Source of the DNA: a virus
Length of the DNA stretch: 64,000 nucleotides
Strand: one strand, 5' to 3'
Virus record (IMG/VR): IMGVR_UViG_3300043410_001892
Span: 247,145-311,144 of that record
Made by a program: the position numbers and the translations under genes. Positions 12,857-41,751 of this stretch are shown here, piece after piece; position 1 is the stretch's first letter; every line of letters begins with the position of its first letter. The notes under the pieces are model-generated. The model was not told where the DNA came from and made no database searches. It worked only from the letters and a program-made list of their open reading frames with translations.

Positions 12857-12899
12857 ATTGTTGCCTCACTTTTATAGTATTTAGTGAAGCAACACTATA

Positions 12900-13169: not shown

Positions 13170-13189
13170 TTCTTTTCCTCTTTGTTATA

Positions 13190-13279
13190 TGGCGGAAGAA
13201 GTGAGATTCGAACTCACGGACGGGACTAACCGTCGACAGTTTTCAAGACTGCTGCTTTAAGCCACTCAGCCACTCTTCC
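13190..13279 (-). tRNA. tRNA-Ser(UGA)
   Basis: Long variable arm, acceptor GGAAGAG/CTTCTTCC, anticodon loop CTTGAAA (UGA), T-arm GTGAG-TTCGAAT-CTCAC, encoded CCA. Confidence 0.92.
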
Positions 13280-13288
13280 TGTTTATTT

Positions 13289-13375
13289 TGGCGGAAGGTA
13301 TAGGGTTCGAACCTATACAACGGTTACCCGTTGACAGATTAGCAATCTGCTCCATTACCATTCTGGCAACCTTCC
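13289..13375 (-). tRNA. tRNA-Ser(GCU)
   Basis: Type II tRNA, acceptor GGAAGGT/ACCTTCC, anticodon loop TTGCTAA (GCU) between CAGA and TCTG, encoded CCA. Confidence 0.92.
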
Positions 13376-13383
13376 TAACTATC

Positions 13384-13458
13384 TGGAGCCTCTTCCCAGA
13401 ATCGAACTGAGATCTAAAGATTACAAGTCAATTGTAATAACCATTATACTAAAGAGGC
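13384..13458 (-). tRNA. tRNA-Thr(UGU)
   Basis: Acceptor GCCTCTT/AAGAGGC with encoded CCA, anticodon loop CTTGTAA (UGU). The anticodon stem is weak, with two T-T mismatches as I fold it, so identity is a little less sure. Confidence 0.8.
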
Positions 13459-13461
13459 AAT

Positions 13462-13540
13462 AACTATTATTAAAGCATCTTTTATTTAGTGCTTTAATAA
13501 TAGCTATCATTTAAAAATGACAACTATTATCTAGGAAGAT
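13462..13540 (-). other. Two strong hairpins between tRNA-Thr and the rRNA-mimic RNA
   Basis: A TATTATTAAAGCA/TGCTTTAATAATA stem (13 bp) and a second TAATAG-TCATTT/AAATGA-CTATTA stem share one arm, so they are mutually exclusive. They could act as a processing site or attenuator between the 23S-mimic RNA and the downstream tRNAs. Confidence 0.45.
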
Positions 13541-13572
13541 CCTATGTTAAAAAAACCTGGTACTATTTTGTT

Positions 13573-13877
<305 letters not shown>

Positions 13878-13880
13878 TTT

Positions 13881-14537
13881 TTATTTTTGTGAAAGTTGCA
13901 TTGCAACGAGTCTATCTAAACCAATAGCAACTTCAAACACCATACCGTGTTCCCAGTCTTTTCTTACAGAACAACCTGCAACTTCCAAATCACCCATCAT
14001 CCAATCTAATGTTTTTTCGGAATAGTGGGGCAGTTCATCAGCTTCTACAATACGGCCGCCGTAAGCATTAGTTAATGCTTCTAATGCAGTTTCAATATAC
14101 GGTGCTTTTGTATCATTACCGCAAAACAACTGGAATTCTAATTGGTAAAACTGTACTAAACGTAACTTACTAGCTCGCATTGTTTCAGCGTTGACTTCGT
14201 CTCTAAACGATAAACCAACTTGCCACAAGCAAAGCGGAAGTTCTTTAACATTAAAGTTTGGGTGTAAAATGTTAAATGCTTCAAAAGTACCTGCAGTAGT
14301 TTCTGGACGCAAATAACCACGTTTTGTCTCAATTAGTTCAAACCCTACATCAATGTGCGATTGCAACGTTGCAGCAGGAGTTAGAATTGGTGTTTCTACA
14401 CGCGCCATTCGTACTGCTCTGTTTAGCTTGTTCCATTCACTGTACAACAAATGCGGAATTTCTCTAATTAGTGTTTCACGTCGGATAATTTCCTGTTCAT
14501 TCCACATTACAGTCGCATTTGAAAAACATTTTTGCAT
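13881..14537 (-). CDS. Glycyl-tRNA-synthetase-like class II catalytic domain, standalone
   Basis: 218 residues, about half of a full GlyRS. Motif 2 region: YLRPETTAGTFEAFNIL, LPLCLWQVGLSFRDEV and KLRLVQFYQLEFQLF, closest in pattern to alpha2-type GlyRS (RPETAQGIF). Motif 3: FEVAIGLDRLVAMQL. There is no anticodon-binding domain. It could be a minimal synthetase, a tRNA-maturation or aminoacyl-transfer enzyme, or a partner of the adjacent RNAs. A consensus promoter lies upstream and AGGAG precedes the ATG. Confidence 0.75.
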   Translation of the reverse strand: MQKCFSNATVMWNEQEIIRRETLIREIPHLLYSEWNKLNRAVRMARVETPILTPAATLQSHIDVGFELIETKRGYLRPETTAGTFEAFNILHPNFNVKELPLCLWQVGLSFRDEVNAETMRASKLRLVQFYQLEFQLFCGNDTKAPYIETALEALTNAYGGRIVEADELPHYSEKTLDWMMGDLEVAGCSVRKDWEHGMVFEVAIGLDRLVAMQLSQK

Positions 14538-14567
14538 AGTAGCTCCTACTAGTTAATTAAAATAAAC

Positions 14568-14595
14568 ATTATACACTAAAATATTAAGATGTCAA
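14568..14595 (-). promoter_or_regulatory. Consensus sigma70 promoter
   Basis: Minus strand: TTGACA, 16 bases, TATAAT, 30 bases before the GlyRS-like gene. It should also transcribe the 23S-mimic RNA and downstream tRNAs. Confidence 0.8.
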
Positions 14596-14622
14596 CTATT
14601 ACTACATCCTAATAAACTTGTT

Positions 14623-14699
14623 TGGCTGGATAGGCAGGGCTCGAACCTGCGACCCGCTGATTAACAGTCAACTGCTACTACCAACTGAGCTACTATCCA
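14623..14699 (-). tRNA. tRNA-Asn(GUU)
   Basis: Acceptor TGGATAG/CTATCCA, anticodon loop CTGTTAA (GUU), T-arm GCAGG-TTCGAGC-CCTGC, encoded CCA. Confidence 0.93.
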
Positions 14700-14734
14700 A
14701 TAAATCTTTTAACTACTTATTTATCTTCGTTATT

Positions 14735-14811
14735 TGGTGGGCCACCCGGGACTTGAACCCGGAACCTGCCGATTATGAGTCGGATGCTCTAACCAATTGA
14801 GCTAAAGGCCC
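14735..14811 (-). tRNA. tRNA-Ile2(CAU)
   Basis: Anticodon CAU in CGACTCATAATCGG, the same arm as E. coli tRNA-Ile2, which needs lysidine at C34. GGGCC acceptor, D-arm GCTCAATTGGTTAGAGC, encoded CCA. Elongator Met is the alternative. Confidence 0.85.
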
Positions 14812-14822
14812 TTAATAAATAT

Positions 14823-14970
14823 ACCTAAGGATGGATTCGAACCATCACCTCCTCGGATTTGCAAGGCAATTCTGTTGCGCCTAACCATATCGCGTTTATG
14901 GTATCATTGGCATTACAGGTTGTGGACGTGTATCAATAACGTCTGCTCTAACCAATTGAGCTACTTAGGT
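14823..14970 (-). tRNA. tRNA-like gene with a ~75-base insertion (identity uncertain)
   Basis: Outer acceptor ACCTAAG/CTTAGGT, U8-A9, a perfect D-arm (GCTC-AATTGGTTA-GAGC) and, at the far end, a perfect T-arm (GATGG-TTCGAAT-CCATC). Between them, instead of about 30 bases, lie about 100: a GACGT/ACGTC hairpin containing TTGATAC (possible GAU anticodon), an ACCAT/ATGGT hairpin, then a second D-like GGTTAGGCGC and a TTGCAA (possible GCA anticodon). No CCA is encoded. Either an intron-bearing tRNA or a fusion of two tRNA remnants. Confidence 0.5.
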
Positions 14971-14975
14971 GTAAC

Positions 14976-15050
14976 TGGCGTCGCTACGGGGAATTGAACC
15001 CCGGTTGCAAGGATGAAAACCTTGTGTCCTAACCACTAGACGATAGCGAC
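14976..15050 (-). tRNA. tRNA-Glu(UUC)
   Basis: Acceptor GTCGCTA/TAGCGAC, anticodon loop TTTTCAT between CAAGG and CCTTG (UUC), T-arm CGGGG-TTCAATT-CCCCG, encoded CCA. Confidence 0.93.
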
Positions 15051-15061
15051 AAATTATATTA

Positions 15062-15152
15062 AAACACACTACTACACGGAATCGAACCGTATCACTGACT
15101 CCGCGCCAGCTAGTGTTCCACACCCACGTTGATCAAACGCTGTAATGTGTTT
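15062..15152 (-). ncRNA. Y-RNA-like element 4
   Basis: End stem AAACACA/TGTGTTT, motif TTACAGC, then hairpins CGTT/AACG and GTGT/ACAC and a T-arm-like TACGG-TTCGATT-CCGTG. No D-arm follows, so it is a divergent or partial tRNA-mimic member; a degenerate tRNA is the alternative. Confidence 0.5.
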
Positions 15153-15170
15153 AAATATAACAACTTTAAC

Positions 15171-15255
15171 AGAATAGCTTGCTCAACCATTGAGCTTTAT
15201 CGCTAAGATAGCAATAATGGAATCGAACCATTAAATAATTTGCTGTGACTATTCT
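15171..15255 (-). ncRNA. Y-RNA-like element 5, tRNA-mimic type
   Basis: End stem AGAATAG/CTATTCT, motif TCACAGC, then T-arm AATGG-TTCGATT-CCATT, closed acceptor TATTGCT/AGCGATA joined by a 5-base linker at 15205-15209, then D-arm GCTC-AATGGTT-GAGC. T-arm before D-arm with a closed acceptor is the inside-out tRNA order of YrlA RNAs. The anticodon-side stem is shortest here. Confidence 0.7.
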
Positions 15256-15264
15256 TTATTAAAC

Positions 15265-15320
15265 AGGATAGAATTTATTTCAGATTAAGAGTCCAATTTA
15301 AATTATGCTGTTACTATCCT
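15265..15320 (-). ncRNA. Y-RNA-like element 6 (minimal)
   Basis: End stem AGGATAG/CTATCCT, motif TAACAGC, apical hairpin TTGGA-CTCTTAA-TCTGA, which resembles a Lys(CUU) anticodon arm. No D- or T-arm. 56 bases. Confidence 0.65.
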
Positions 15321-15324
15321 AAAC

Positions 15325-15398
15325 TGGCAGTCCCTGCAGGTATCGAACCTACGCTAGCAGAATCAAAATCTGCTGTGCTACCATTACACCAAGGAACA
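15325..15398 (-). tRNA. tRNA-Gln(UUG)
   Basis: Anticodon loop TTTTGAT between GCAGA and TCTGC (UUG), T-arm GTAGG-TTCGATA-CCTGC, encoded CCA; the acceptor has one mismatch at the first pair. Confidence 0.9.
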
Positions 15399-22073: not shown

Positions 22074-22426
22074 TTTAATCTTCCTATTAGTGTGTACATC
22101 CAACGTGGAAATACAGGTTCGTTACAAAAAGCATCACAACTTTCTAATCCTGCAGGTGGATCAGGAAGTTCATATAGTGATTTTAATGGAGGTGGAGGAT
22201 TAAATCCAGTCATTCCGTTTTGATTGCGATATTGCGGTTTGTGTGGTGGAAGAGGAGGGGACATCGTCTTAAACGGATGCCCGTCAACAATACGTTTCAT
22301 AGCATCACGGTGTTCCATCAATGCTATGCGTGTTTCACCGTGATCTATATACATTATTTCATATCTCAACTTTTCTAATGTTGAATTGATATAATCGTAT
22401 GATTCTTGTGTTAAGTTTTGATTCAT
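22070..22426 (-). CDS. Unknown proline-rich protein
   Basis: 118 residues. Helical N-terminus (YDYINSTLEKLRYEIMYIDH), Pro-rich middle (MSPPLPPHKPQYR, FNPPPPLKSLYELPDPP) and a C-terminal CDAFCNEPVFPRWMYTLIGR. Overlaps the macro-domain and NAMPT genes by 4 bases, so coupled with NAD metabolism. No family recognised. Confidence 0.55.
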   Translation of the reverse strand: MNQNLTQESYDYINSTLEKLRYEIMYIDHGETRIALMEHRDAMKRIVDGHPFKTMSPPLPPHKPQYRNQNGMTGFNPPPPLKSLYELPDPPAGLESCDAFCNEPVFPRWMYTLIGRLK

Positions 22427-23733
22427 AGTCCACCTAATGCGCGTAATCGAATAGTATCTAAACTATCATCAATCAACAGCTTACCATTGTGATAATATGT
22501 TTCTAATTGGTATTCTTCAAATCTACCACCTTGTGATTTTTTACCTGGATCAGTAACTGGATTTTTAACAGTATCAATCCATTCATCATTGATTTTCATT
22601 GCAGAAGTTTTCTGTGCAAATGAATAAGTATCACGATTCACTTTTTGTAATAAACCACCACCACTGCCATATACAAGTGTTTCAGCTGCATAGCCAAGTT
22701 CTTTAACCATGTGTGCTAATGCTTTCATAGATGCAGTATCAATACCATCACCTTGAATTAAACTAACATTGTTAAGCACTTTGTAGCCTTTAGAGTTTAC
22801 AGTATGTCCAAACCAGTAATCAATAACATTAAGTAATTTTGGTATTACTACTAATGGATTACCTGAGTCTGGTCGGATAACAACTTTAATACCACTTTGT
22901 TTAATAATGTGTACAAAGTGTGAACACAATGCTTCAGTATCGCGATAAATGTCATAACCATCAAGTACAATTGAAACTATATCACCTTTTGCCATATCGT
23001 GTAGAATAGATGAAATATATTCCATTTGTTTATCATTGCCATAAGAGCATTGAACGCTGTGTTCAGTAGCAGGAATTGAGTAACCTGGCATTTTACAATT
23101 ATAATACTTACGGCTAGCAGCAATTGATGCTAAGTTGTCAGTACCTCTAAAGTAAATTAAGTGAGCTAATCCACCCATCTCTGCAGTCTCATATGAGCTT
23201 ACACCGCGAGCGCCAAAGTCATGTAATGCAAATTGTAAGTTTGCTAGGTTATCAGAAGTTTCATCGTACACTTCTTTAAGTATTGCATAGTTCTCACGAT
23301 CATTTGAAGCAATAGTACTTGGATACCAAACATCACGTTGCAACCATGATTCAATGTAAGATGGCAACCAGTACAACTCTGGATCGTTTGATTCAACTGT
23401 AAGAATTGGAGTTTGTGATGGAGTAGGTGTGCCTTCTAGCACTGCTTTAATAGTAACAGGCAAGTAACCACCGTGTACATCATGAATTCTCTCCCATCCT
23501 GCGTAATTAAATGGTAATCCATGTTCAGTAAGAATCTGTTCTGCTTCAATAACATCTTCCCATTTAATTGGTTTTAGCAGATTCTTTTTAATTGCCATCT
23601 GCAAGCCAAATGGTACGATTGTTTTACCTGGCTTTCTTGCTGACAAGTAAGCAAATTGAGCAGAAGTACCAGCTGGGTACCATGCATAGTGACTGGCTTT
23701 GTAAGAGTCGGCATTAAGAATAATATTAGACAT
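22423..23733 (-). CDS. nadV: Nicotinamide phosphoribosyltransferase
   Basis: 436 residues of the NAMPT/NadV family, converting nicotinamide and PRPP to NMN. Signatures: DSYKASHY, LHDFGARGVSSYETAEMGG, GYSIPATEHSV, VIRPDSGNPL and LVYGSGGGLLQKVNRDTYSF. With the next gene it forms a two-step route from nicotinamide to NAD, the arrangement used by phages to rebuild NAD after NADase-type defences. Confidence 0.96.
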   Translation of the reverse strand: MSNIILNADSYKASHYAWYPAGTSAQFAYLSARKPGKTIVPFGLQMAIKKNLLKPIKWEDVIEAEQILTEHGLPFNYAGWERIHDVHGGYLPVTIKAVLEGTPTPSQTPILTVESNDPELYWLPSYIESWLQRDVWYPSTIASNDRENYAILKEVYDETSDNLANLQFALHDFGARGVSSYETAEMGGLAHLIYFRGTDNLASIAASRKYYNCKMPGYSIPATEHSVQCSYGNDKQMEYISSILHDMAKGDIVSIVLDGYDIYRDTEALCSHFVHIIKQSGIKVVIRPDSGNPLVVIPKLLNVIDYWFGHTVNSKGYKVLNNVSLIQGDGIDTASMKALAHMVKELGYAAETLVYGSGGGLLQKVNRDTYSFAQKTSAMKINDEWIDTVKNPVTDPGKKSQGGRFEEYQLETYYHNGKLLIDDSLDTIRLRALGGL

Positions 23734-23743
23734 TGTTACCTCG

Positions 23744-24685
23744 TTATTTCAAATTAAATTTTATCTTAGCAAATGTATTAGTCATTGAGCTAATAATATC
23801 TCTATGATCATGGAACATATCTAAGTCGTTAAGTACAGTAGTTAATGGAAACCATTGTGCATCAATTGCATCGTCATTGGCTACTGTTTGCATAGGTTCA
23901 TCAACTACAAACATTTTACAGTATGTAACTCTAAGAATACCACCGCTGTCTCGACGTACTGAATCAAACAACTGAGTCTTGTATGCTATGCTACTGACAG
24001 TAATACCTGTTTCTTCTAGTAGTTCGCGATCAGCGCATTGATCAAATGTTTCATTAGCATTCTTAAATCCGCCTGGCAATGCCCATTTGTTTTTACCTGG
24101 AGCAGTTTTTCTTTTAATTAGTAAAACTTGATTGTCATTAGTTATTACTAATGCATCACTACAACAAAATGTAAGTGTTTCTGGAAACGGATAACTTGCA
24201 AACATCTGTTTCTCGTTTTTAAAATAGTTGTAGTCTTCTTGTGCTAGTTCAGGTAATTGATTATTTTCTGCTAGTTCAGTTCTAATTTGTGTACCTGAAA
24301 TAGTTGAAACTGGATCAACTTCTATGTATTCAAATCCTTGAAACCAAGACAAGTATAAGTTATCTGGTTTAGTATGTCCATATAAGCAAACGTCGTGATC
24401 TTCTGAATGCATACGAATAATATAACATGTTTGCGATATCCATTTGTTATCATTATACAAGTAGTCGTTAAGTGGTTCCACAATAACATTAGGAAACTTC
24501 TGTTTAACATTGTCATGTCGTTCTGCATAGGACCATGGATTCTTAATAGTATTTGATTGATTAGCTGAACCAATTAAAACTAATTGTTTATCAGTATTTT
24601 TAATCATAGTCTGTATGATTAGTTCGTGTCCTTCATGCATTGGTTGTAATCTACCAATAAAAACACCTAATTTAGGTTTTATCAT
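23744..24685 (-). CDS. nadM: Bifunctional NMN adenylyltransferase / Nudix hydrolase
   Basis: 313 residues. N-terminal nucleotidyltransferase: FIGRLQPMHEGH (HxGH-type site), NPWSYAER and SGTQIRTEL (ISxxx[T/S]xxR-type motif). C-terminal Nudix box: GGFKNANETFDQ then RELLEETGI (G-x5-E-x7-REUxEExGU complete). It makes NAD from NMN and ATP, while the Nudix part probably hydrolyses ADP-ribose or NADH. Ten bases upstream of nadV in the same operon. Confidence 0.95.
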   Translation of the reverse strand: MIKPKLGVFIGRLQPMHEGHELIIQTMIKNTDKQLVLIGSANQSNTIKNPWSYAERHDNVKQKFPNVIVEPLNDYLYNDNKWISQTCYIIRMHSEDHDVCLYGHTKPDNLYLSWFQGFEYIEVDPVSTISGTQIRTELAENNQLPELAQEDYNYFKNEKQMFASYPFPETLTFCCSDALVITNDNQVLLIKRKTAPGKNKWALPGGFKNANETFDQCADRELLEETGITVSSIAYKTQLFDSVRRDSGGILRVTYCKMFVVDEPMQTVANDDAIDAQWFPLTTVLNDLDMFHDHRDIISSMTNTFAKIKFNLK

Positions 24686-30005: not shown

Positions 30006-32051
30006 TTATTTTTCCGTAGCTATCCATTCTCCATTCCAGTTATCACCTAAATCTTGTTGTTTCATAAAGTCACAACGTTCAATCCATATTTTGTAGTATT
30101 TGTCCATTTGTCCACCAAAGGTGCCTTTCATAGTTTTACACATTGCAGCAGCTTCATCAAACTTCTTTTGTTTATATAAGTCGTGCATGAGGTTGTGTAA
30201 GTCTTTATCTTTACTATAATCAGCACCTTTGGTGCGTAATGCAGTATAGATTAAGTCTGCAACTGTTTTACCTTTTGGTTGTAAGTTATCTAACAGTAAG
30301 TAAAAGAAATCGTCTTTAGTTCTGTTATATGTTTCAGCACCAATGATACATAGTACACCGTATGCTTTACAACGTGCTTCTAAACGAGCAGCAGTTGAAA
30401 CCATATCACCTAAGATATCATAGCTGTGTCTATCACTAGAACCCATTTCGCCAATGAAGCCTATTCCGCTATTACACCCCCAGCCCATAGCTGCGGGTGG
30501 TAACCCTTTGGCTTCCATAATCTTAGTATATGTATCGACTGCGTCTAGCATTTCTAAGCCAACTTTAACAATAGTACGAGCATGATTTCCATCATCAATT
30601 GGAGCACCGTGAATATGCATTGATGCATCTCCTACGTACTTAATAACCATACCTTGACTATCCATAATAGGTTTACTAATACTATCCATATATCCGTTCA
30701 TGTATAGACCTAGACCTGCAACATCATCGCCAAAGTGTTCACCAATTGGAGTAAATCCGCGCAAATCTGAGAACATAACTGAAACATCTTTACGTACACC
30801 TTGTTTAATTAAGTCTGGATTTTCTTGTAGCATTTCAACTACTTTTGGAGAGCAGTAGCCAGCAAATTGTTTTTTAATAGCTAGTTTTTGAGTTAGTTCA
30901 TCCACAAACTTAACAGTATAAGCATGAGCATAAACAAGAGTAAATCCAGATACAACAAATGTTGCATCCAAAAGAATATTATAAGTGGTGAAAGCATAAC
31001 TAAAAGCATAAGGTATACCACCAATGAAAGCAATAATAGGAACAAAGCCGTATCTCCATCTTGTTAAAAATATAGATCCAATTGCAAGTACAATAAAACC
31101 TAATAGTTCAGCACCGTCTGCATAATCAGGTCGTACAATATTAGTACCGGATACTAATGTGTCTAAAACCGCACCTTGAACTTGATGCGGAAACTGTTCT
31201 CCTCTAGCAGTTGCAACTGGGTTATTGAGTCCCCTTGCAGTAAGTCCGACAATGACGATCTTTCCGCCAAAGAATTCTGGGAGATCAGTGATTGGAAAAC
31301 TTTCAGGTTGGTGGGACCAGTCAATCCAAACTCTACTATAGGGGTCTGTTGCAATTTTTCCAAACTTAGGTATTCTGACAGCTTCGACTCCAATGTCTGA
31401 GATTTTAACTTGGAAACTTGGATCTCCACTTGCGACTCTAAGTGTGTCCAGTCCAAGGCTTGGATAGAGTTTTCCTTTTGATGAAATAACCATTGGCATT
31501 CTTCGCACGACGCCATCAAGTTCTGGGAAAGTGTTAACAATACCAGCACCAGCAATAACATCATTAAGTTCTTTAGTATTTGCTTGTATGTTTTCATAAT
31601 TTACAGTAAAAGGTTGATCTTCGTTACCGATTACACTAACGCCTGGACGAAATGCAATAGTATCTGATTTTATAGGTTCGTTAGTTCCAGTTTGCGGTAA
31701 GATTACAGGAACTGTTGTCATAAGTTTAGCTAAGACTGGGTCTTTTTTAAATCTATCAGCATCTGGCATAAAGATGTTGAATACAACTAAGCCAGCACCT
31801 CTTGAATACAACTCTTCAATTATTTGAGCATATATATCACGTGAGAATGGGAATTGACCATACTTCTCTAATGCAGCATCGTCGATGTTTACTGTAGCAA
31901 CAGATGATTCTTGTATAGGTTTACTTGTAATAAGTGTATCAAAGTATCTTAATCTCATACTTTCTACAAATGATGGATCTGCAATTCTTATAGCTGCAAC
32001 TAGCATAAGAGTTAAAAGAGCAGTCCATGGGTTTAATAATATTTTCTTCAT
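30006..32051 (-). CDS. CHASE2-domain class III adenylate cyclase
   Basis: 681 residues: signal anchor (residues 8-24), large extracytoplasmic CHASE2 sensor (about 30-320), three more membrane spans (325-390) and a cytoplasmic cyclase domain (about 420-600). Metal aspartates are in MFSDLRGFT and YVGDAS; IKYVGD supplies the adenine-specific lysine. In the final motif GDMVSTAARLE the usual transition-state Asn is Ser while the Arg is kept, so activity may be reduced. Start at 32051 overlaps the stop of the upstream curlin gene (TAATG). It is the last gene of the curli operon; FecR-CHASE2-cyclase sets occur in bacteria. Confidence 0.88.
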   Translation of the reverse strand: MKKILLNPWTALLTLMLVAAIRIADPSFVESMRLRYFDTLITSKPIQESSVATVNIDDAALEKYGQFPFSRDIYAQIIEELYSRGAGLVVFNIFMPDADRFKKDPVLAKLMTTVPVILPQTGTNEPIKSDTIAFRPGVSVIGNEDQPFTVNYENIQANTKELNDVIAGAGIVNTFPELDGVVRRMPMVISSKGKLYPSLGLDTLRVASGDPSFQVKISDIGVEAVRIPKFGKIATDPYSRVWIDWSHQPESFPITDLPEFFGGKIVIVGLTARGLNNPVATARGEQFPHQVQGAVLDTLVSGTNIVRPDYADGAELLGFIVLAIGSIFLTRWRYGFVPIIAFIGGIPYAFSYAFTTYNILLDATFVVSGFTLVYAHAYTVKFVDELTQKLAIKKQFAGYCSPKVVEMLQENPDLIKQGVRKDVSVMFSDLRGFTPIGEHFGDDVAGLGLYMNGYMDSISKPIMDSQGMVIKYVGDASMHIHGAPIDDGNHARTIVKVGLEMLDAVDTYTKIMEAKGLPPAAMGWGCNSGIGFIGEMGSSDRHSYDILGDMVSTAARLEARCKAYGVLCIIGAETYNRTKDDFFYLLLDNLQPKGKTVADLIYTALRTKGADYSKDKDLHNLMHDLYKQKKFDEAAAMCKTMKGTFGGQMDKYYKIWIERCDFMKQQDLGDNWNGEWIATEK

Positions 32052-32674
32052 TATTGTCCTTGTTGTACTGATATTGGTGCGCATCCGCCTGCAGTAGCGC
32101 AGTTAGAGTTTATAGAATAAATTTGTTGAGTAGCACCGCTTTGTCTTAGGTTTAAACTAGCAGGCTGTCCAGATAGAATAACTTCAGACATATGAGGTGC
32201 TGCTCCTTCTTGTATAATACTAACATTCTTATTACCACCTGAAAGATTAACTGTTGCATAATGATTACCTTCATCAGTTTGGTGAATGCTAAGTAAGTTA
32301 TTATCATCAGCTACTGTAGCAAATATACCTTTCCCAAAGCTAGTAGCTGTAGTTGTAGTTTGTTCAAGATCTATAGTATTAGTGTTACCAGTTGTTGATA
32401 AATCAACAAAATTAGTTTGCAAATCGTTAGTTCCAATTTGATTGATTGTTACACTATTACTACTACCCACACCTGTATAGTTAGTGTAGTTATTTTTTGT
32501 ACCAATTTGTTCAACGGTAATTGTATTATCATTACCAGATTGCATAATAGTTGATTGATTATCAGAAGTTGGTCTTGACACAAACGTCATTACTTTAGCA
32601 ACATCTGCAGGGTTTGCAGGCGGTAATGCATAACTTACTGAGGTTGCTAATAATAAAAGAAACATAAATCTCAT
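32051..32674 (-). CDS. Curlin-repeat protein (minor subunit-like)
   Basis: 207 residues. Signal peptide MRFMFLLLLATSVSYA, then imperfect curlin repeats with the N-x-x-x-x-x-Q-x-G/T spacing: NDNTITVEQIGTKNNYTN, SNSVTINQIGTNDLQTN, TNTIDLEQT, NLLSIHQTDEGN, NVSIIQEG, SLNLRQSG. Such repeats form the beta-helical amyloid of CsgA/CsgB. Overlaps neighbours on both sides. Nucleator or major subunit cannot be told apart. Confidence 0.8.
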   Translation of the reverse strand: MRFMFLLLLATSVSYALPPANPADVAKVMTFVSRPTSDNQSTIMQSGNDNTITVEQIGTKNNYTNYTGVGSSNSVTINQIGTNDLQTNFVDLSTTGNTNTIDLEQTTTTATSFGKGIFATVADDNNLLSIHQTDEGNHYATVNLSGGNKNVSIIQEGAAPHMSEVILSGQPASLNLRQSGATQQIYSINSNCATAGGCAPISVQQGQ

Positions 32675-33753
32675 TTGTGTAATACTCCGTTAGTTTGTGT
32701 AATATTTACTGTATTGCCGCCAAACCCTCCTTGACCTATAAGAGCCGATGACAGTGTGTTATCTTGTGTCACTGATACTGTAGTGTTTGAATTATATCCT
32801 TGTGTTTTAACTTCTGAATAATGATTCATAGGTGAAATTCTGTAAGCAATTGCTTTACCCTTTTGTTCACCTTCTCCATCCGGATTTTCCCACATTAGGC
32901 AAACAGTAGTAATTGGATTACATCCATTATCAAATTTAAAGTTTAATATTGCTCGAATATGTGCGTCCATTGTTTCTTGAGTCTTTGATACTTGATTTGC
33001 TAACCTACGCGTAGCTTCTTCTTCAACTTCTTCCTGTTCTTTATCCCATTTAGTTTTAGCTGCTTCTTTAACAGCTTTTGTAAGTTCAGGAGGTTTAAGT
33101 AGAATCAACGTATTGTTGATCTTTGATTCAAGTACACTAACAATAGTTGGAGGACTAGGCATAACAGTACGACTTTGAACATACGTTGCATGGAATGCTT
33201 GATCTAATACTACTTTACCTGCTTCATTCTCAACTTCAATTTGTCCTGACTTGCATTGATTTTCTTCAAGTTCGTATTCTTTAACTTGCTTGTCATCTTT
33301 GCAACTTGGTAACAGTACAATTAAAGATTGACCAGCTTCGTCAACTGTCATGGAAAAGTCAGTACCTCTAACTGCAATAGTAGCAGTAGGAGTTTGAATA
33401 CCAACTTGTTGTGGATTAGCTTTAGCTATCTGCCCACTTGCATAACGTACAGTTCCCATACCAACTTTTAATGCAAGTTTACCTGCATCAGATTGCTTTG
33501 GATCGTAAACAAAGTCATCTATAACTAATCGACTATTTTCTGTTACTTTAACTTTTGTATCGTCTTTGAATATTAAATTGCTAACGCAACTACCAGTAGA
33601 ATACGCATCCATACTTTCTATTGATGCGCCTTTATCACCAGTAAGTTTTTCTTTATTACGTTCAATATTACACGCAGTTCCTTTGGCATCAGATACTGAA
33701 CCAATACCTGCGTGTACATTTGTAACTAAAAGAAAAAATAGTAAGATCCACAT
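32671..33753 (-). CDS. FecR-domain secreted protein with curlin-like C-terminus
   Basis: 360 residues. Signal peptide MWILLFFLLVTNVHA. Residues 20-150 form a FecR-type beta domain (IFKDDTKVKVTENSRLVIDDF, TPTATIAVRGTDFSM). Middle region 230-265 is helical and charged. The last 40 residues contain two curlin-like repeats (NSNTTVSVTQDN, GGNTVNITQTNG). The fusion suggests it is attached to, or senses, the amyloid, perhaps passing a signal to the CHASE2 cyclase two genes downstream. Confidence 0.8.
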   Translation of the reverse strand: MWILLFFLLVTNVHAGIGSVSDAKGTACNIERNKEKLTGDKGASIESMDAYSTGSCVSNLIFKDDTKVKVTENSRLVIDDFVYDPKQSDAGKLALKVGMGTVRYASGQIAKANPQQVGIQTPTATIAVRGTDFSMTVDEAGQSLIVLLPSCKDDKQVKEYELEENQCKSGQIEVENEAGKVVLDQAFHATYVQSRTVMPSPPTIVSVLESKINNTLILLKPPELTKAVKEAAKTKWDKEQEEVEEEATRRLANQVSKTQETMDAHIRAILNFKFDNGCNPITTVCLMWENPDGEGEQKGKAIAYRISPMNHYSEVKTQGYNSNTTVSVTQDNTLSSALIGQGGFGGNTVNITQTNGVLHK

Positions 33754-34532
33754 TATCTTGCAACAGCTGATTTTTCGCCTACTATACCTAATGTTGCATC
33801 ATTAGTTGAATGTACAGTAATTGTATTGTTATTACCGGTAGTATTGATATCAATCATAGAATCATTAGACCCTTGTTGCTGTGTAACAATTGAGTTAAAG
33901 TCACCAGTGATTAGTTGTGTAAGTTGATGTCCAATACCGCCATTATCTTGTTCGTTTATAAAAGAGTTAAAGTTACCATTTGCGGTAGTAGTATCAATTC
34001 CATTCATACTATTTAATCTTGTAGTAATTTGGTTAGACGAACCAGTTATCGCAATTGTACTATGTATATTATCTTTAGTTAGTGATTGAATAATAAAGTT
34101 TGTATCTCCACTAACTGTTTCATTTACTATGTTAGTAGATGACGGAGTTCCTGTAACACCAATAGTAAGTAACGTTTGATTTTGCATTCCTGTTATCAGT
34201 GATGAGTAAATGTTATTGTTACCATTGATGTTATATTGTGCCCAGTTCCCGTCGCCTGTTTGATTAAGAGTTACTTGGTTAGTATTTCCTGTAATCGTTG
34301 CATAATTCGTTGTGGCTGCAGCACTTGGTACAAACGAAGTAATAATGTTGTTAGCACCGTAAGATATAGGAGAAACAAGTGTTGTGCCACCAACATTATT
34401 AGTTCCGCCAATCTGATCAATAATAATTGTGTTTGTATTACCAAGTTGTTCAATGTATACATTATTAGTTCCTGTTGGTCCAGCTGCAAGTACAGAATTA
34501 CTGAGTAGGAGTAGAACTAATAACTGTTTCAT
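33753..34532 (-). CDS. Curlin-repeat protein (major subunit-like)
   Basis: 259 residues. Signal peptide MKQLLVLLLLSNSVLAAG. Many curlin-type repeats: NNVYIEQLGNTNTIIIDQIG, NTNQVTLNQTGDGNWAQYN, NFIIQSLTKDN, NSIVTQQQGSNDSMIDIN, NTITVHSTNDA. The start at 34532 has AGGAG upstream and lies inside the 3' end of csgG. Likely the main secreted amyloid subunit. Confidence 0.82.
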   Translation of the reverse strand: MKQLLVLLLLSNSVLAAGPTGTNNVYIEQLGNTNTIIIDQIGGTNNVGGTTLVSPISYGANNIITSFVPSAAATTNYATITGNTNQVTLNQTGDGNWAQYNINGNNNIYSSLITGMQNQTLLTIGVTGTPSSTNIVNETVSGDTNFIIQSLTKDNIHSTIAITGSSNQITTRLNSMNGIDTTTANGNFNSFINEQDNGGIGHQLTQLITGDFNSIVTQQQGSNDSMIDINTTGNNNTITVHSTNDATLGIVGEKSAVAR

Positions 34533-35355
34533 TGCTGGTCTCCTTAGATTGTTCTTTAAAAGACCAATGTCCTTTTCTCGCTCCTTCTTTAATAGTTTCA
34601 AGCACTGCAGCTTGAATTGCCTTATTAGTTGCCTTATTAATACTTTCATTAATACTTCCACCTATTTCTGTTTCTAACATCTTTGTGTCAGAAGAGAACA
34701 TTCTTAATACACCTACTTTATCCATATAACTTAGAACAGTTTTTGTTACTACTACCGATGTTAAAATTTCACCAGAAGTAACAGAAACTACTCTCAAGCT
34801 AACTGTAACTGTATCGCTTTGGTATTGCGTTTCACCCCCAATACCAAAGATCCTAACACCAGCACCTCCTGTGACTGTGTTAGAGTCGTACCCAACAATT
34901 GCACCTTCTGCAATAATACCAGCAAAAGTCATAGCAGGTAACGGTGTTGCAGCATCCTTTCCTTGGAACTGCTCGCGGGTTTGACGAATCATTTGCCGCT
35001 CTTTAATTAGATTATCTAATCCAACTCTTTCTAGTACTATAAACCATCGATTATTACCTACTTCTTTTAATGCTTTAATTAAGTAATTTTCTGCACCTTG
35101 GGTAACAGCTGAACTTAAACTAGCAATATTTGGAACTGATTTACGTTGCCCAGTTTTATCATTAAATCCGTATACTGCAATTGGTATAGGACCAGTAGTA
35201 GGCGGTGCAAGTAAGTTTTCTTCTTTTTTCATAAAAGGAGTATCATCAATAATTGGATCATCAAATTGTTCACCTGTTATGAATTTTTCAATTGTGCTAG
35301 TAGTAGCGCATCCGTAAAGTAATATGGTTGTTATTAGTATGAGTAGTTTTTTCAT
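34498..35355 (-). CDS. csgG: CsgG curli secretion pore lipoprotein
   Basis: 285 residues. Lipobox LYGCAT after a short signal (Cys16). CsgG family blocks: IPIAVYGFNDKTGQRKSVPN, VTQGAENYLIKALKEVG, WFIVLERVGLDNLIKERQMI, IIAEGAIVGYDSNTVTGGAG and YQSDTVTVSLRVVSVTSGEI. CsgG forms the nonameric outer-membrane channel of type VIII secretion. Nine bases after csgF-like. Confidence 0.95.
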   Translation of the reverse strand: MKKLLILITTILLYGCATTSTIEKFITGEQFDDPIIDDTPFMKKEENLLAPPTTGPIPIAVYGFNDKTGQRKSVPNIASLSSAVTQGAENYLIKALKEVGNNRWFIVLERVGLDNLIKERQMIRQTREQFQGKDAATPLPAMTFAGIIAEGAIVGYDSNTVTGGAGVRIFGIGGETQYQSDTVTVSLRVVSVTSGEILTSVVVTKTVLSYMDKVGVLRMFSSDTKMLETEIGGSINESINKATNKAIQAAVLETIKEGARKGHWSFKEQSKETSNETVISSTPTQ

Positions 35356-35363
35356 GCTTTACC

Positions 35364-35837
35364 TTAAAAATAGAAAGTGCCCGCAGGTACTTTCATCAAT
35401 GTTGTTTGATCTGGATTAAGATTATTTGTAATACTAATAACGATCATTCCTTGATCAGAGCCTTCACCTAAACTCCATGAAACTGTACTCCCTCCAAGAT
35501 CGGGAATAGTTCCACATGTTATACCAGGTTCGGTACATTTAGTTCCGTCAGCAAACATACTATCAGTAAGTTGTTTTGCTAACTGTGAATATATTCTTGA
35601 TTCTAAATTTGATAGAAATTTAGCTTGTGGAGTATTAAGTGCAAGAGCGTCTGCTTTGGCTTGTATTGCATCAGCAAGTGCTTTATGTTTTTCAACATTT
35701 TGCTGTTCAAGTTGTTGAATAGTTAGAGTATGATTACTATAACCAATGCCGCTAAATGCTGGGCTATTAAAGCTATGTTGGAGTTCAGCAGAATATGCTG
35801 TTGTTGATACTAGTAGTAATGCTAATAGTTTTTTCAC
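35364..35837 (-). CDS. csgF: CsgF-like curli assembly protein
   Basis: 157 residues. Signal peptide MKKLLALLLVSTTAYSA, then ELQHSFNSPAFSGIGYSNHT, matching the CsgF N-terminal segment (F-x-NP-x-F-GG) that plugs into CsgG, a helical middle and a beta C-terminus (MIVISITNNLNPDQTTLMKV). The start is GTG (35835-35837) with GGGG upstream. First gene of the operon. No CsgE or CsgD homologue is visible in the window. Confidence 0.82.
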   Translation of the reverse strand: MKKLLALLLVSTTAYSAELQHSFNSPAFSGIGYSNHTLTIQQLEQQNVEKHKALADAIQAKADALALNTPQAKFLSNLESRIYSQLAKQLTDSMFADGTKCTEPGITCGTIPDLGGSTVSWSLGEGSDQGMIVISITNNLNPDQTTLMKVPAGTFYF

Positions 35838-35881
35838 TTCAGTCCCCTTTAAGTTATTATGTATTTACCTAAAAAAAGTAG

Positions 35882-36021
35882 TAATTTTTAGAACTGTAAT
35901 ATAAGAGATAAATAACTATAACAACTTAGGACCGTCACATTTATGTGCCTAAGGCGTCAAGGTTGCCCTACCTAGCAGTTTGAGATTCGCTACCTCTTAT
36001 AACTGTAAACAGGGCTTTTTT
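35882..36021 (+). ncRNA. Structured intergenic element with terminal T-run (possible plus-strand small RNA)
   Basis: TATAAGAG/CTCTTATA encloses CTTAGG/CCTAAG, and GCCCT pairs with AGGGC directly before T9 on the plus strand. That end looks like an intrinsic terminator. On the minus strand it would be the leader of the curli operon. Strand and function unresolved. Confidence 0.4.
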
Positions 36022-36026
36022 TTTGA

Positions 36027-36434
36027 CTAATTATCAGTCTTATGAGCAAAGTTAGTAAAATAGTCTACTTCTTTGTCACCGTATGTTTTCTTAGCTGGTC
36101 TTTTCTTAGTTGGAGCTGGAGTATCAGTATCAGTAGCTTTAGTACGACCGGTACTACTAATCTTTTTTAAATCTGCATCTATTTGTTCTCTTCGTCTTTT
36201 TGCCTTTGCTTCCGGAGTATTTTGTGCAGCAAGTTCCTTATCTTTCTTTTCTTTTTCAAATTTTTTAAAAGCAGCAATATCAGCTTCGGCTTTTTGTTTT
36301 GCAGCCCATTGTTTCTTTTCTTTAGCAGTTGCATAACGTGGCGGTTGTTTTGGTTTGTCTTCTTTTTTCTCTTTTGGTTTTGGAGCCATTAGATCAAGTT
36401 CTTTTTGAGAAAACATAATTTCGTCTATTTTCAT
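36027..36434 (-). CDS. Lys/Ala-rich protein with possible capsid-targeting leader
   Basis: 135 residues, highly charged, helical Lys/Ala/Glu repeats (KEKKQWAAKQKAEADIAAFK) and a basic Thr/Pro-rich end. N-terminus MKIDEIMFSQKELDLM matches the M(K/R)I-x-E-(I/L) leader group. It looks like a head-internal or scaffold-type protein; inference. Confidence 0.5.
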   Translation of the reverse strand: MKIDEIMFSQKELDLMAPKPKEKKEDKPKQPPRYATAKEKKQWAAKQKAEADIAAFKKFEKEKKDKELAAQNTPEAKAKRRREQIDADLKKISSTGRTKATDTDTPAPTKKRPAKKTYGDKEVDYFTNFAHKTDN

Positions 36435-37736: not shown

Positions 37737-38414
37737 TTACATTTCAGGAAATAGACATTCGTGTACGAATAATTTAACATCTTCGTCACTTAGTCCAAGT
37801 GCAGCCATTACTCGAGGGGTGTGCGGTATTTGTTTTTGTTGTATAGCATAAAAGTTTTGTGCTTGCACCGTGCTTTTAACTGTGTTATTTGTACGCGCAA
37901 CGTTTGAAACATAGTAGTTGCTTGTTGTTTGTACAATGCTATTTATTTGTGTAATTTCATCTTGTTTTTGAATATTACTTGCTGCAATTATATGTGGGGA
38001 AAATATATCCTTCCCCCACTCAGGAATTTCTCGAACCTTTTCCCAAGTAAGTTTGTTTACTTCTTGGCTAAAAAAATCTATCATTGGATGATCAACATCA
38101 CCTGCAGGACTGTAATCATGAAAGAATCCAGTAATCTTATTACGTCCTGCAACAATGTCGCAACCAAAGATAGGAGCCGGGTTATGAATGTGAGGAAAAA
38201 TACAGCAATGCATCATCCATAACCCGTTACCATCTGAAGCATCTACTACATTAAGATGCGCTCTACGATATGCATTGCTAGTCCAAACTCTGTTGATCCA
38301 GCCATTATAGTTAAATCGTTCTAAGCCAGGTTCTTCAATTTCAGTACCTGACTGATTAAACAATTCTTCTAAATGATGCTGGACTTTAATTAGTTGTGTC
38401 TTTAGCTCAGTCAT
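37737..38414 (-). CDS. Ferredoxin-dependent bilin reductase (PcyA/PebS/PcyX family)
   Basis: 225 residues. Family core: RRAHLNVVDASDGNGLWMMH, CCIFPHIHNPAPIFGCDIVAG, NKITGFFHDYSP and VDHPMIDFF. These enzymes reduce biliverdin to phycobilins using ferredoxin. It overlaps the heme oxygenase gene that would supply biliverdin. Phage versions include PebS and PcyX; PcyX occurs in phages thought not to infect cyanobacteria, which would fit this host. The exact product (phycocyanobilin or phycoerythrobilin) cannot be read from motifs alone. Confidence 0.9.
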   Translation of the reverse strand: MTELKTQLIKVQHHLEELFNQSGTEIEEPGLERFNYNGWINRVWTSNAYRRAHLNVVDASDGNGLWMMHCCIFPHIHNPAPIFGCDIVAGRNKITGFFHDYSPAGDVDHPMIDFFSQEVNKLTWEKVREIPEWGKDIFSPHIIAASNIQKQDEITQINSIVQTTSNYYVSNVARTNNTVKSTVQAQNFYAIQQKQIPHTPRVMAALGLSDEDVKLFVHECLFPEM

Positions 38415-38964
38415 TGACTAATGGAATCGAAATTGAATCGTGTAGTTCATCAAACAATCTTGCGGCAAATTCAAAACACACGTTTGCTTCATCTGCCATA
38501 TCATCGTTTAGCTTTTCTCTAATGGTAGCTTTAAGCTCACTGGCATTTTCAAATTTGTAATAGTTTCCTTGTCCTGGAACTTTTTGTGCAATCATTTGAC
38601 CACCATACAAATCTCCCATGTGTCTAACATACAAGTGCGCCATTAGTTTTTCTTTATCTTCGCGTATTGTAACTAAATGCTCTTTATATGCAGTAGTCAC
38701 TGGCAATTCAACAGGTGGAGCATCTCCCTTAGGCCATAGTTCATAAAAATCTTCGTGTATACGCGGAGCACGTCTAATATTAGGAAGATCGTTTAACAGT
38801 CCAGCCATTGTTGCATGTGTTTCTAGCATGTCGTACATTTGAAATTGATTATACAAATATGTTGCATATAGAGTTGGATTGATCTCTCCTGCAAAAATCA
38901 TTTTAACAAATGGCTTTGATTCAACTAGATCGTGTGATGCTTTAGTTAGTTCTTTTAAACTCAT
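38407..38964 (-). CDS. ho1: Heme oxygenase
   Basis: 185 residues. Motifs: LTKASHDLVESKPFVKMIFAG (proximal His), YLYNQFQMYDMLETHA, AHLYVRHMGDLYGGQMIAQK (distal helix with GDLYGG) and YKFENASELKATIREKLND. Cleaves heme to biliverdin, CO and iron. The start at 38964 has GGAG upstream; the longer reading frame overlaps clpS and is rejected. Stop overlaps the bilin reductase start. Confidence 0.95.
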   Translation of the reverse strand: MSLKELTKASHDLVESKPFVKMIFAGEINPTLYATYLYNQFQMYDMLETHATMAGLLNDLPNIRRAPRIHEDFYELWPKGDAPPVELPVTTAYKEHLVTIREDKEKLMAHLYVRHMGDLYGGQMIAQKVPGQGNYYKFENASELKATIREKLNDDMADEANVCFEFAARLFDELHDSISIPLVND

Positions 38965-38980
38965 TATTTCTCCAATAAGG

Positions 38981-39283
38981 TTATTCTTCTTCAAGTTTAA
39001 GTTGTAATGGGAAACCCGACGCCCTTGCAAGTGCAGTTGCTTCGACTGTTTTTATTTCTGCAATTTCAAAATTGTAAACACCTGCTACTGCAGAACCAGT
39101 TTCATGAATTTGCATAGTAATAATACCTGCAGAATTTGGGTCATGTTTAAAGATCTCCATTAGCATTGATACAACAAAATCAACCGGAGTAACATCATCG
39201 TTAAGAACGATTACTTTCCAACGTTTTGGTTCTGGTACTTGTATCTTTACTTTTTCGTCTACAGCAATATCTGTACTTGTCAT
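38981..39283 (-). CDS. clpS: ClpS adaptor
   Basis: 100 residues, matching ClpS: PKRWKVIVLNDDVTPVDFVV (NDD and N-degron pocket), HETGSAVAGVYNFEIAEIKT and ARASGFPLQLKLEEE. ClpS delivers N-degron substrates to ClpA. Together with phage clpP and the tmRNA it suggests control of host ClpAP targeting. Confidence 0.95.
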   Translation of the reverse strand: MTSTDIAVDEKVKIQVPEPKRWKVIVLNDDVTPVDFVVSMLMEIFKHDPNSAGIITMQIHETGSAVAGVYNFEIAEIKTVEATALARASGFPLQLKLEEE

Positions 39284-39291
39284 TTGGACTC

Positions 39292-39711
39292 CTATTTAAT
39301 TTGAATTTGACGAGTAATCGTCGGGGTAGGTGAAATGTGATTAAGAGTAATTGTTAGTACTCCGTCCTCAATTGTTGCACTTTGGATTTCAATATTTTCA
39401 GCTAAAGAAAAAGATTTTTCAAAATCGCGAAAACCAAGCCCTCTATGCATGTATATTTTATTTGCTGAAGGATGCGGTTGGCTTCTTTTTCCAATAATAA
39501 CAAGCTGATTACCTGTAAGATTTACAGTAATATCTTCTTTTTTAAAACCTGCGATTGCTATTTCAATAGTGTATTCACTATTATCATAATTGATTATATT
39601 GTATGGTGGGTAATTGTTAGCTGCTGAAATACATGCAGCAGTAAATAGAGAATCAAACCCTATTAATGATTTATTGTATACTAGTAATGATAATTTGTCA
39701 TCTGACGACAT
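39292..39711 (-). CDS. Small heat shock protein (Hsp20/IbpA)
   Basis: 139 residues with an alpha-crystallin domain: YNIINYDNSEYTIEIAIAGF, ITVNLTGNQLVIIGKR, RGLGFRDFEKSFSLAENIEI and GVLTITL (I-x-I-type tail TRQIQIK). Nine bases before clpS and behind its own promoter. Holds unfolded proteins for refolding by DnaK. Confidence 0.93.
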   Translation of the reverse strand: MSSDDKLSLLVYNKSLIGFDSLFTAACISAANNYPPYNIINYDNSEYTIEIAIAGFKKEDITVNLTGNQLVIIGKRSQPHPSANKIYMHRGLGFRDFEKSFSLAENIEIQSATIEDGVLTITLNHISPTPTITRQIQIK

Positions 39712-39719
39712 AAAAAAAT

Positions 39720-39765
39720 CTCCTTATAAAAAGCGAGTACCGTTATAAACCCGTATGGCGTTTAT
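39720..39765 (-). promoter_or_regulatory. hsp20 5' leader element shared with dnaK
   Basis: The leader contains GCCATACGGGTTTATAAC and ends ACTCGCTT before the ribosome site. The dnaK leader (41770-41825) has GCCAATAGGGTTTAATAC and ACTCGCTT in the same order. A shared mRNA element, such as a thermosensor or protein-binding site, is possible. Confidence 0.5.
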
Positions 39766-39774
39766 TTAAAATAT

Positions 39775-39803
39775 ATTATAGCATAGCTGCTGACAAATGT
39801 CAA
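39775..39803 (-). promoter_or_regulatory. Promoter of the hsp20-clpS-ho-bilin reductase operon
   Basis: Minus strand: TTGACA, 17 bases, TATAAT, 20 bases after the dnaK stop. Confidence 0.85.
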
Positions 39804-39822
39804 CAGCTATGCACAAGTATTG

Positions 39823-41751
39823 TTATTCAGTTTTATCTGAATCAGGATTTGCAGTTACCTCAACTACTTCTTCAGTTGGAGTAACTTCTGAAAATTCAGC
39901 ATCTACACTTTCTGCAGTTGATGAGTTAGCTTCATCTAACTCACGTTTCTTATCAAATGCAGGTTGCGCTGCTTCGTATAGTGTTTTAATTGCTTCACCG
40001 ATAGCTTCAATATCTTCACCGTCACGAGCAGTATTTAATGCAAGGAATGCATCTTCAATTGCATTGCGTTGTTCATCAGTTAGTTGATCTTTTACTTCAT
40101 CATAATCTTTTCTAACTAAGTATACCTGTGTTTCAGCTTGATTTCGAGTATCGATTAGCTCTTTAGCTTTAGCATCTGCTTCTGCATTTTCTTCAGCTTC
40201 TCTAACCATACGTTTGATTTCGTCCTCAGTTAAACCTGAATCAGATTTAATAGTAATCTTGTTTTCTTTGCCGGTATTCTTATCTTTAGCACTTACATGC
40301 ATAATACCGTTAGCATCGATATCAAATGTTACTTCAATCTGTGGCATGCCACGTGGGGCTGCATCAATACCTTCTAAATTAAATTCACCAAGTTGTTTAT
40401 TGTAACGATACAATTCACGTTCACCTTGTCCTACTCTAATAGTTACAGCAGGTTGGTTGTCCTCTGCAGTTGAGAATGTTTGGCTTGCTTTAGTTGGGAT
40501 AGTTGTGTTTTTAGTAATTAGTTTAGTAAATACACCACCCATTGTTTCAATACCTAAACTTAGTGGAGTAACGTCAAGTAACAATACGTCAGTTTTGTCA
40601 CCTGCTAATACCGCACCTTGAATAGCTGCACCAGCTGCAACTGCTTCGTCTGGGTTAACATCTTTACGTGGTGCTTTTCCAAAGAATGCTTCAACAGCTT
40701 CTTGTACTTTAGGCATACGTGTTTGTCCACCTACTAAAATTACTTCGTCAATATCTGACAAATCAACTTTAGCATCTGCAACTGCAATTTTACAAGGTTC
40801 AATTGAACGTTGAATTAAATCATCAACTAGACCTTCAAACTTAGCACGAGTTACAGTTACGTTTAAGTGTTTAGGACCAGTGGCATCTGCAGTAACATAT
40901 GGTAAGTTGACATTAGTTTGTGCAGTGCTTGATAACTCAATTTTAGCTTTTTCAGCAGCTTCTTTTAAACGTTGTAATGCCATTGTATCGGATTTAAGAT
41001 CAACACCAGAATCTTTCTTAAATTCATCGATTAAATGATCCATTAAACGTTGGTCAAAGTCTTCACCGCCTAAGAATGTATCACCGTTTGTTGATAATAC
41101 TTCAATTTGTTTATCACCGTCAACATTAGCGATTTCAATAATACTAATATCAAAAGTACCACCACCTAAGTCAAATACAGCAACTTTGCGGTCTTTCTTA
41201 TCAGACTTATCAACACCATAACTTAATGCTGCGGCTGTTGGTTCATTAATAATACGCAATACTTCTAATCCAGCAATACGTCCTGCGTCTTTAGTTGCTT
41301 GACGTTGTGAATCGTTAAAGTATGCAGGTACAGTAATAACTGCTTGAGTTACTTCTTTACCTAAATAGTCTTCTGCAGTTTTTTTCATCTTACGTAAGAT
41401 TTCTGCAGATACTTGTGGTGGAGCTAATTTTTCACCGTTCGCTTCTACCCATGCATCGCCATTGTCAGCTTTAATAATACTGTACGGCATTAAGTCAATA
41501 TCTTTCTGTACAGCTGACTCGTCGAATTTACGACCAATGAGACGCTTAACAGCATATAATGTGTTTTTTGGATTTGTTACTGATTGACGTTTTGCTGCAG
41601 CACCAACTAAAATTTCTTCTGGTGTGTATGCGATGATTGAAGGGGTAGTACGTGTACCTTCTGCGTTTTCAATTACTTTAGCAATTCCGTTTTCTAAGAT
41701 TGCTACGCAGCTGTTTGTTGTACCTAAGTCGATTCCGATAATTTTGCTCAT
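39823..41751 (-). CDS. dnaK: Chaperone DnaK (Hsp70)
   Basis: 642 residues, full length. Nucleotide-binding domain: [57 protein letters not shown]; linker [13 protein letters not shown]; substrate-binding domain [13 protein letters not shown]; lid and an acidic tail. No dnaJ or grpE nearby, so host co-chaperones are probably used. AGGAG precedes the ATG. Confidence 0.98.

Follow-up and report, generated by a model that had tools for sequence, protein, structure and literature searches.

A curli-type secretion operon in a large freshwater phage carrying pmoC, with a predicted role at the surface of infected cells

What would a phage gain from carrying the genes for curli (type VIII) secretion? 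Published accounts of phage curli disagree, with some proposing fibers and others only a pore. A 372,173-bp freshwater virus record (IMG/VR IMGVR_UViG_3300043410_001892) raises the question in a new setting, as it encodes both pmoC and a minus-strand gene cluster that was originally predicted, from the DNA and its open reading frames, to be a complete curli-type amyloid export operon with its own sensor and cyclic AMP output. Here, "the window" is the 64,000-nucleotide stretch of this record that was analyzed (positions 247,145 to 311,144), and all coordinates refer to it unless another contig is named; pmoC lies at approximately 2527 to 3243.

A six-gene operon in a phage genome

Six genes are arranged head to tail in the order csgF, csgG, curlin 1, fecR, curlin 2, and CHASE2 cyclase (Table 1). 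The original prediction described all six as overlapping; the genes themselves stand as described, but csgF and csgG are separated by an 8-bp gap and only four of the five junctions overlap, which is still the pattern expected of one operon. Five of the six products passed curated Pfam cut-offs, with curlin 1 falling just below, and the predicted CsgF-like, CsgG, and CHASE2-cyclase identities were all confirmed. The CsgF match scored 29.8 bits against a cut-off of 25.8, while phmmer comparison with the sequences of solved CsgF structures gave no match; csgF begins with a GTG codon preceded by a good ribosome binding site, and its product has a signal peptide. Residues 1 to 276 of CsgG match the solved Escherichia coli CsgG (E = 1.2e-50). 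The most likely start of curlin 1 is 34532, not 34661, where the open frame begins, and an alternative ATG start 12 codons into the cyclase gene is also possible.

Table 1. Features of the curli operon and its upstream region (window coordinates)
Feature	Position	Strand	Description
csgF-like gene	35364..35837	-	157 aa; first gene of the operon; Pfam CsgF 7.3e-7; PHROG 35372 8e-31
csgG lipoprotein pore gene	34498..35355	-	285 aa; Pfam CsgG 1.8e-48
Curlin 1	33753..34532	-	259 aa from likely ATG; signal peptide; RBS AAGGAGA
Secreted FecR-domain protein	32671..33753	-	360 aa; Pfam FecR 1.2e-8; curlin-like beta tail
Curlin 2	32051..32674	-	207 aa; Pfam Curlin_rpt 1.6e-7
CHASE2 sensor and class III nucleotide cyclase	30006..32084	-	692 aa; CHASE2 1.4e-33; Guanylate_cyc 1.3e-12
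T4-type late promoter-like motif GTAAATACA	35860..35868	-	31 bp before csgF
Conserved structured noncoding element	35901..36029	-	Upstream of csgF; 92-94% identity in relatives

Calling the operon complete proved too strong. The pore, its partner, and two curlins are present, but a search of the whole 372-kb genome for CsgE gave no match at an E value of 1. In E. coli, this gate increases output but is not essential (PMC7029224), and it is absent from the phage versions reported in PMC9599517.

The original prediction itself named one way in which the locus could be an artifact, which was a switch to bacterial sequence created by misassembly. An independent 171,592-bp IMG/VR contig matches the record with 100% identity across 16,855 bp that include both edges of the operon, which excludes a chimera of bacterial DNA and a phage contig. 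Virion structural proteins and a tail-fiber attachment ligase are also encoded in the window, and the same operon occurs in the cultured phages HTVC008M and Melnitz, leaving a chimera with practically no chance of being correct. The host of the virus is likely Methylococcales-like; in the genomes sampled, the closest pmoC (L174) is 86% identical to that of the phage. On one curli-carrying phage contig, that of L003, the pmoC copy (L161) is broken by a TAA stop.

Several neighboring genes on the same strand merit mention on their own account. At 37737 to 39030, genes for a heme oxygenase (E = 3e-17) and a ferredoxin-dependent bilin reductase (E = 4e-18) lie side by side, giving this pmoC phage a pair for bilin synthesis of the kind known in cyanophages. 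Upstream of the operon, ClpS, Hsp20, and a full-length DnaK (Hsp70, E = 2e-258) are encoded in a row at 38981 to 41751. A phage tmRNA at 26476 to 26918 matches the permuted and betaproteobacterial tmRNA families, and a Bax inhibitor-1 family membrane protein (E = 7e-45) is encoded at 118 to 822. At 22423 to 24685, a NAMPT-like nicotinamide phosphoribosyltransferase adjoins a NUDIX/cytidylyltransferase protein, and the two are probably an NAD-salvage pair.

Conservation and origin of the operon

A protein search with CsgG in IMG/VR recovered 56 loci. The csgF-csgG-curlin 1-fecR-curlin 2 order was kept in every locus with enough sequence, and all six genes were present in 36 of them, as well as in HTVC008M and Melnitz; in the remaining loci, either the sequence runs out or only the distal cyclase is missing in view. 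The cyclase follows curlin 2 either immediately or with one to four genes in between, is inverted in one locus (L015), and has a broken frame in a few contigs. By eye, a 959-aa autotransporter-like protein could be seen between curlin 2 and the cyclase in another locus (L034, positions 12492 to 15371 of that contig). All six genes are under purifying selection, with Nei-Gojobori omega values mostly between 0.05 and 0.25, which are rough values given that several pairs were near synonymous saturation. The original prediction called for a search of other pmoC phages, and 6 of 30 tested curli-carrying records also encode pmoC.

A search of methanotroph chromosomes bears on whether the operon is simply an island of host genes that the phage recently acquired from a methanotroph and that does nothing specific for the phage. 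Curli operons do occur in some Methylococcales-like genomes, with CsgF present in 16 of 301 genomes from the order of a pmoC-bearing relative. However, these operons place the curlins before csgF-csgG and have no FecR or cyclase gene nearby, and the window operon differs from them on each count. Methylococcales CsgG proteins also form their own clade, apart from phage CsgG (100/99), while the window CsgG falls inside a large, well-supported phage clade. The different gene order and the separate CsgG clade argue against a recent host copy, and we reject this origin as highly improbable.

Matches in genome collections provided no secure cellular carrier of the phage-type operon. The four with phage-type gene order (L078 to L081) are all metagenome bins, and at least one is apparently phage: L081 is a 142-kb contig that is probably a misbinned phage because it also encodes a T4-like helicase and thymidylate synthase.

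Two curlins and exchangeable N-terminal heads

Curlin strands were counted with the motif N-x-b-x-b-x-Q, where b is hydrophobic or Thr and the last position is Q or H. Curlin 1 contains five such motifs, and its Pfam Curlin_rpt match (E = 0.006) is below the cut-off. Across 41 homologs, the curlin 1 family has 170 strand motifs, compared to 12.6 expected from shuffled sequences. In loci with enough sequence, the curlin pair is never reduced to one.

Curlin 2 of relatives has a common curlin-repeat part that ends in a Cys loop and lies behind an N-terminal head. The head is a PA14 domain in 7 of 25 curlin 2 proteins and an F5/8 type C domain in another 7, with unassigned domains in some others. 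The window curlin 2 has the conserved C-terminal Cys loop (NCATAGGC) and no head, as does its identical twin (L007), while their closest relatives carry an F5/8-like head. These heads seem to be interchangeable between phages and of a sugar-binding type, and they appear to be undescribed before now. An AlphaFold model of the repeat part has 14 regular, stacked strands (pLDDT of 82); a Foldseek search with this model against solved structures returned no significant match, with the CsgA fibril (8enq) at an E value of 0.75.

An open CsgG pore could instead let the infected cell take up large nutrients or cofactors, as was suggested by Zaragoza-Solas 2020 (PMC7029224) and Wittmers 2022 (PMC9599517). 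The lack of a CsgE gate is consistent with such a role. However, uptake needs neither curlins nor binding heads nor CsgF, yet these are the conserved parts, and we judge it a rather improbable explanation.

A late-promoter motif upstream of csgF

The sequence TATAAAT is a T4-like late promoter, used as such in PMC9004378, and the motif NTAAATA resembles it. Of 41 distinct homologs, 34 have NTAAATA in the 110 bp preceding csgF, mostly at −25 to −44, a count that carries no probability since TAAATA was chosen after viewing upstream sequences and the rows are related, although its position is consistent. For comparison, the motif occurs in 6.75% of random stretches, before 1 of 44 csgG genes, and before 1 of 38 fecR genes. 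A strict upstream search for TATAAATA revealed no enrichment, while the shorter TAAATA was enriched. The motif also precedes a few curlin 2 and cyclase genes, including the window curlin 2, as well as some genes of the window's structural region.

Late timing would also fit a role in lysis, where the CsgG-CsgF pore would be a lysis or membrane-depolarizing device, such as a gated pore or pinholin, and the other genes would be accessory. This role was proposed for Melnitz with structural modeling by Buchholz 2022 (PMC9004378), who discussed the operon and described csgA and csgB as missing. The proposal relied on that absence, yet the Melnitz record annotates csgF, csgG, a curlin repeat protein, FecR, a second curlin repeat protein, and a cyclase. 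Lysis also gives no reason for two conserved curlins with their heads, for the tail on FecR, or for the cyclase, all of which are under purifying selection. We consider it unlikely, if somewhat less so than uptake.

Riboswitch control, also proposed for Melnitz, was not supported here, as an Rfam scan near csgF detected neither a glutamine riboswitch nor any other cis element. The conserved noncoding element farther upstream maintains its identity where coding DNA is at ~75%, has a predicted two-hairpin fold (z of −1.85), and matched no Rfam family. It was present in just 8 IMG/VR contigs and lies ~0.9 kb further from csgF in relatives; it is probably outside the curli module and not tied to the operon in those relatives. 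The element contains GGTAGCGAA and ACGGTCCTAAG, which are reminiscent of 23S rRNA around the I-CeuI site with the order swapped.

FecR protein with a curlin-like tail

In the phage FecR protein, the FecR region comes immediately after a signal peptide. When modeled, its domain matches the PupR periplasmic domain (6ovk, E = 2.6e-4), a likeness to cell-surface signaling proteins, but the phage protein adds a curlin-like tail and lacks the cytoplasmic anti-sigma N terminus of FecR sigma regulators. With that part missing, it is not a canonical iron-transport sigma regulator, and a role as an iron regulator was ruled out.

The original prediction had this protein ending in curlin repeats. A conserved tail does exist, but it consists of one clear NxVxIxQ strand (NTVNITQ, residues 347 to 353) plus one weaker strand, and Pfam does not detect it. 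Outside the FecR region, this C-terminal strand is the most conserved part of the protein, with Ile351 and Gln353 invariant in 29 aligned homologs. The tail motif falls within the last 60 residues of 35 of 38 phage FecR proteins (shuffled sequences average 1.5), compared to 1 of the 87 bacterial relatives of FecR that lie outside curli loci, showing that the tail goes with curli and not with FecR generally. A curlin-like tail on FecR seems to be undescribed in earlier work.

Whether such a fusion senses amyloid or anchors it can be argued from the same features. As a nucleator or retention plug, FecR would have a folded domain too big for CsgG and would take the place of CsgB by keeping the first curlin strand at the pore. 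The conservation of the terminal strand favors this variant of amyloid export, as do the lack of an evident dedicated CsgB and a stretch of 62 residues that matches 5ix9, a domain for anchoring at the cell surface (TM 0.73 of target, E = 0.15). Against it, the tail is modeled at low confidence (pLDDT of about 50 to 63), and FecR also pairs with CHASE2 proteins where there is no curli, pointing to signaling. We hold the tethered nucleator to be a serious possibility at somewhat less than even odds. The original inference from fusion to sensing was therefore only partly sustained: the tail is genuine and particular to FecR proteins linked to curli, which backs sensing indirectly, but anchoring or nucleating fits about as well. 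Sensing of amyloid by FecR that feeds cyclic AMP is plausible from these sequences, and the sensing and anchoring roles are about equally supported.

A CHASE2 cyclase with an altered active site

Class III cyclases have two metal-binding Asp residues, a purine-specifying Lys, and transition-state Asn and Arg residues. The window cyclase keeps the FSDLRGFT, IKYVGD, and AARLE motifs, including the metal-binding and purine-specifying residues. In its group, as in Melnitz, the transition-state Asn has become Ser (VN to VS, in VSTAARLE), but the canonical residue is present in other phages of the set. Because of this substitution, the predicted cyclase activity is not assured.

Bacterial FecR loci without curli encode a gene matching the CHASE2-cyclase profile in view in 19 of 76 cases, and within 1 kb in 9. 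This suggests that FecR and the cyclase are an older signaling pair that curli joined later. The phage genome encodes no cyclic nucleotide-binding domain or cAMP receptor, so any cAMP output must act via host proteins, and cyclic nucleotide-binding proteins were found in three bacterial genomes whose pmoC resembles that of the phage.

Proposed function

We propose that the operon encodes a phage-borne type VIII secretion module, expressed late, that coats infected cells with amyloid, and assign this reading a probability of roughly 0.6. Two constant curlins, exchangeable heads, a late motif, and a curli-specific FecR tail argue for amyloid at the surface, and the lysis and uptake readings explain fewer of the conserved parts. 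Counting against the proposal are the missing CsgE, the lack of a cyclic nucleotide receptor in the phage, the sub-threshold Pfam score of curlin 1, the altered cyclase residue, the unconvincing fold match of curlin 2 to CsgA fibrils, and the Melnitz cultures in which no clumping was seen (PMC9004378). The amyloid export role envisioned in the original prediction was thus upheld by the pore, its partner, the curlins, the late motif, selection, and occurrence in many phages, but as a kind the module was already published.

Main transcription would proceed as a single late unit from the T4-type promoter before csgF. CsgG and CsgF would form an outer membrane pore in the infected cell, and the two curlins, judging from their families and conservation, would be exported through it to build cell surface amyloid. 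The globular domain of FecR would stay in the periplasm while its tail could contact exported curlins or the pore. FecR appears to be paired with the membrane-bound CHASE2 cyclase, so that conditions of export or of the envelope may alter cyclic nucleotide levels, which host cyclic nucleotide-binding proteins would read. The net effect would most likely be a changed, adhesive surface on infected cells, with adhesive specificity in many relatives predicted to be set by the swappable carbohydrate-binding-type head on curlin 2. The likeliest benefit would be superinfection exclusion or retention of neighboring hosts.

A more elaborate form of this amyloid coat would monitor itself, with FecR reading curlin passage or assembly via its own strand and switching the cyclase, and with curlin 2 heads exchanged among phages. 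This is a speculative extension with odds well below even. If true, the curlin 2 head would be swapped like the tip of a tail fiber, letting each phage set its own adhesion or exclusion.

Comparison with known systems

The module shares with E. coli curli its CsgG pore (E = 1e-50), CsgF, and curlin-repeat subunits; it differs in lacking CsgE and in adding FecR and a CHASE2 cyclase, and the window CsgG is separate from E. coli CsgG in the tree, as it is from that of Methylococcales.

Among phages, a CsgF/CsgG operon was reported by Zaragoza-Solas 2020 (PMC7029224), and the complete set, FecR and cyclase included, was described in pelagiphages by Wittmers 2022, with expression in metatranscriptomes (PMC9599517). 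HTVC023P-type podoviral and myoviral pelagiphages have the same order of csgF, csgG, curlin, FecR, second curlin, and adenylate cyclase, without CsgE, CsgC, or CsgD. The window module departs from the pelagiphage one (PMC9599517) in residing in a pmoC phage of 372 kb and in having no histidine kinase next to it. Neither the curlin tail on FecR nor the PA14 or discoidin-type heads on curlin 2 are mentioned in the main text of that paper.

Gene order identical to that of the window is also found in Melnitz EXVC044M (a Methylophilales phage; genes 99 to 104 of MZ577097), cultures of which showed no clumping (PMC9004378), and in Pelagibacter phage HTVC008M (KC465899). Compared to the window, these two phages have 42 to 46% identity in CsgG and 34 to 45% in the cyclase. 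Both are Kyanoviridae of 141 to 147 kb with marine hosts, in contrast to the 372-kb window phage, and HTVC008M has a PA14 head on curlin 2, which the window protein lacks.

The large freshwater pmoC phages of Chen et al. 2020 (PMC7674155) share pmoC and a large genome with the window phage. Curli, CsgG, and cyclase are unmentioned in the main text of that paper, and the main texts searched contain no earlier mention of a curli module in pmoC phages. With the present locus, the known range of the module grows beyond smaller marine phages to include large freshwater ones that encode a methane-oxidation gene.
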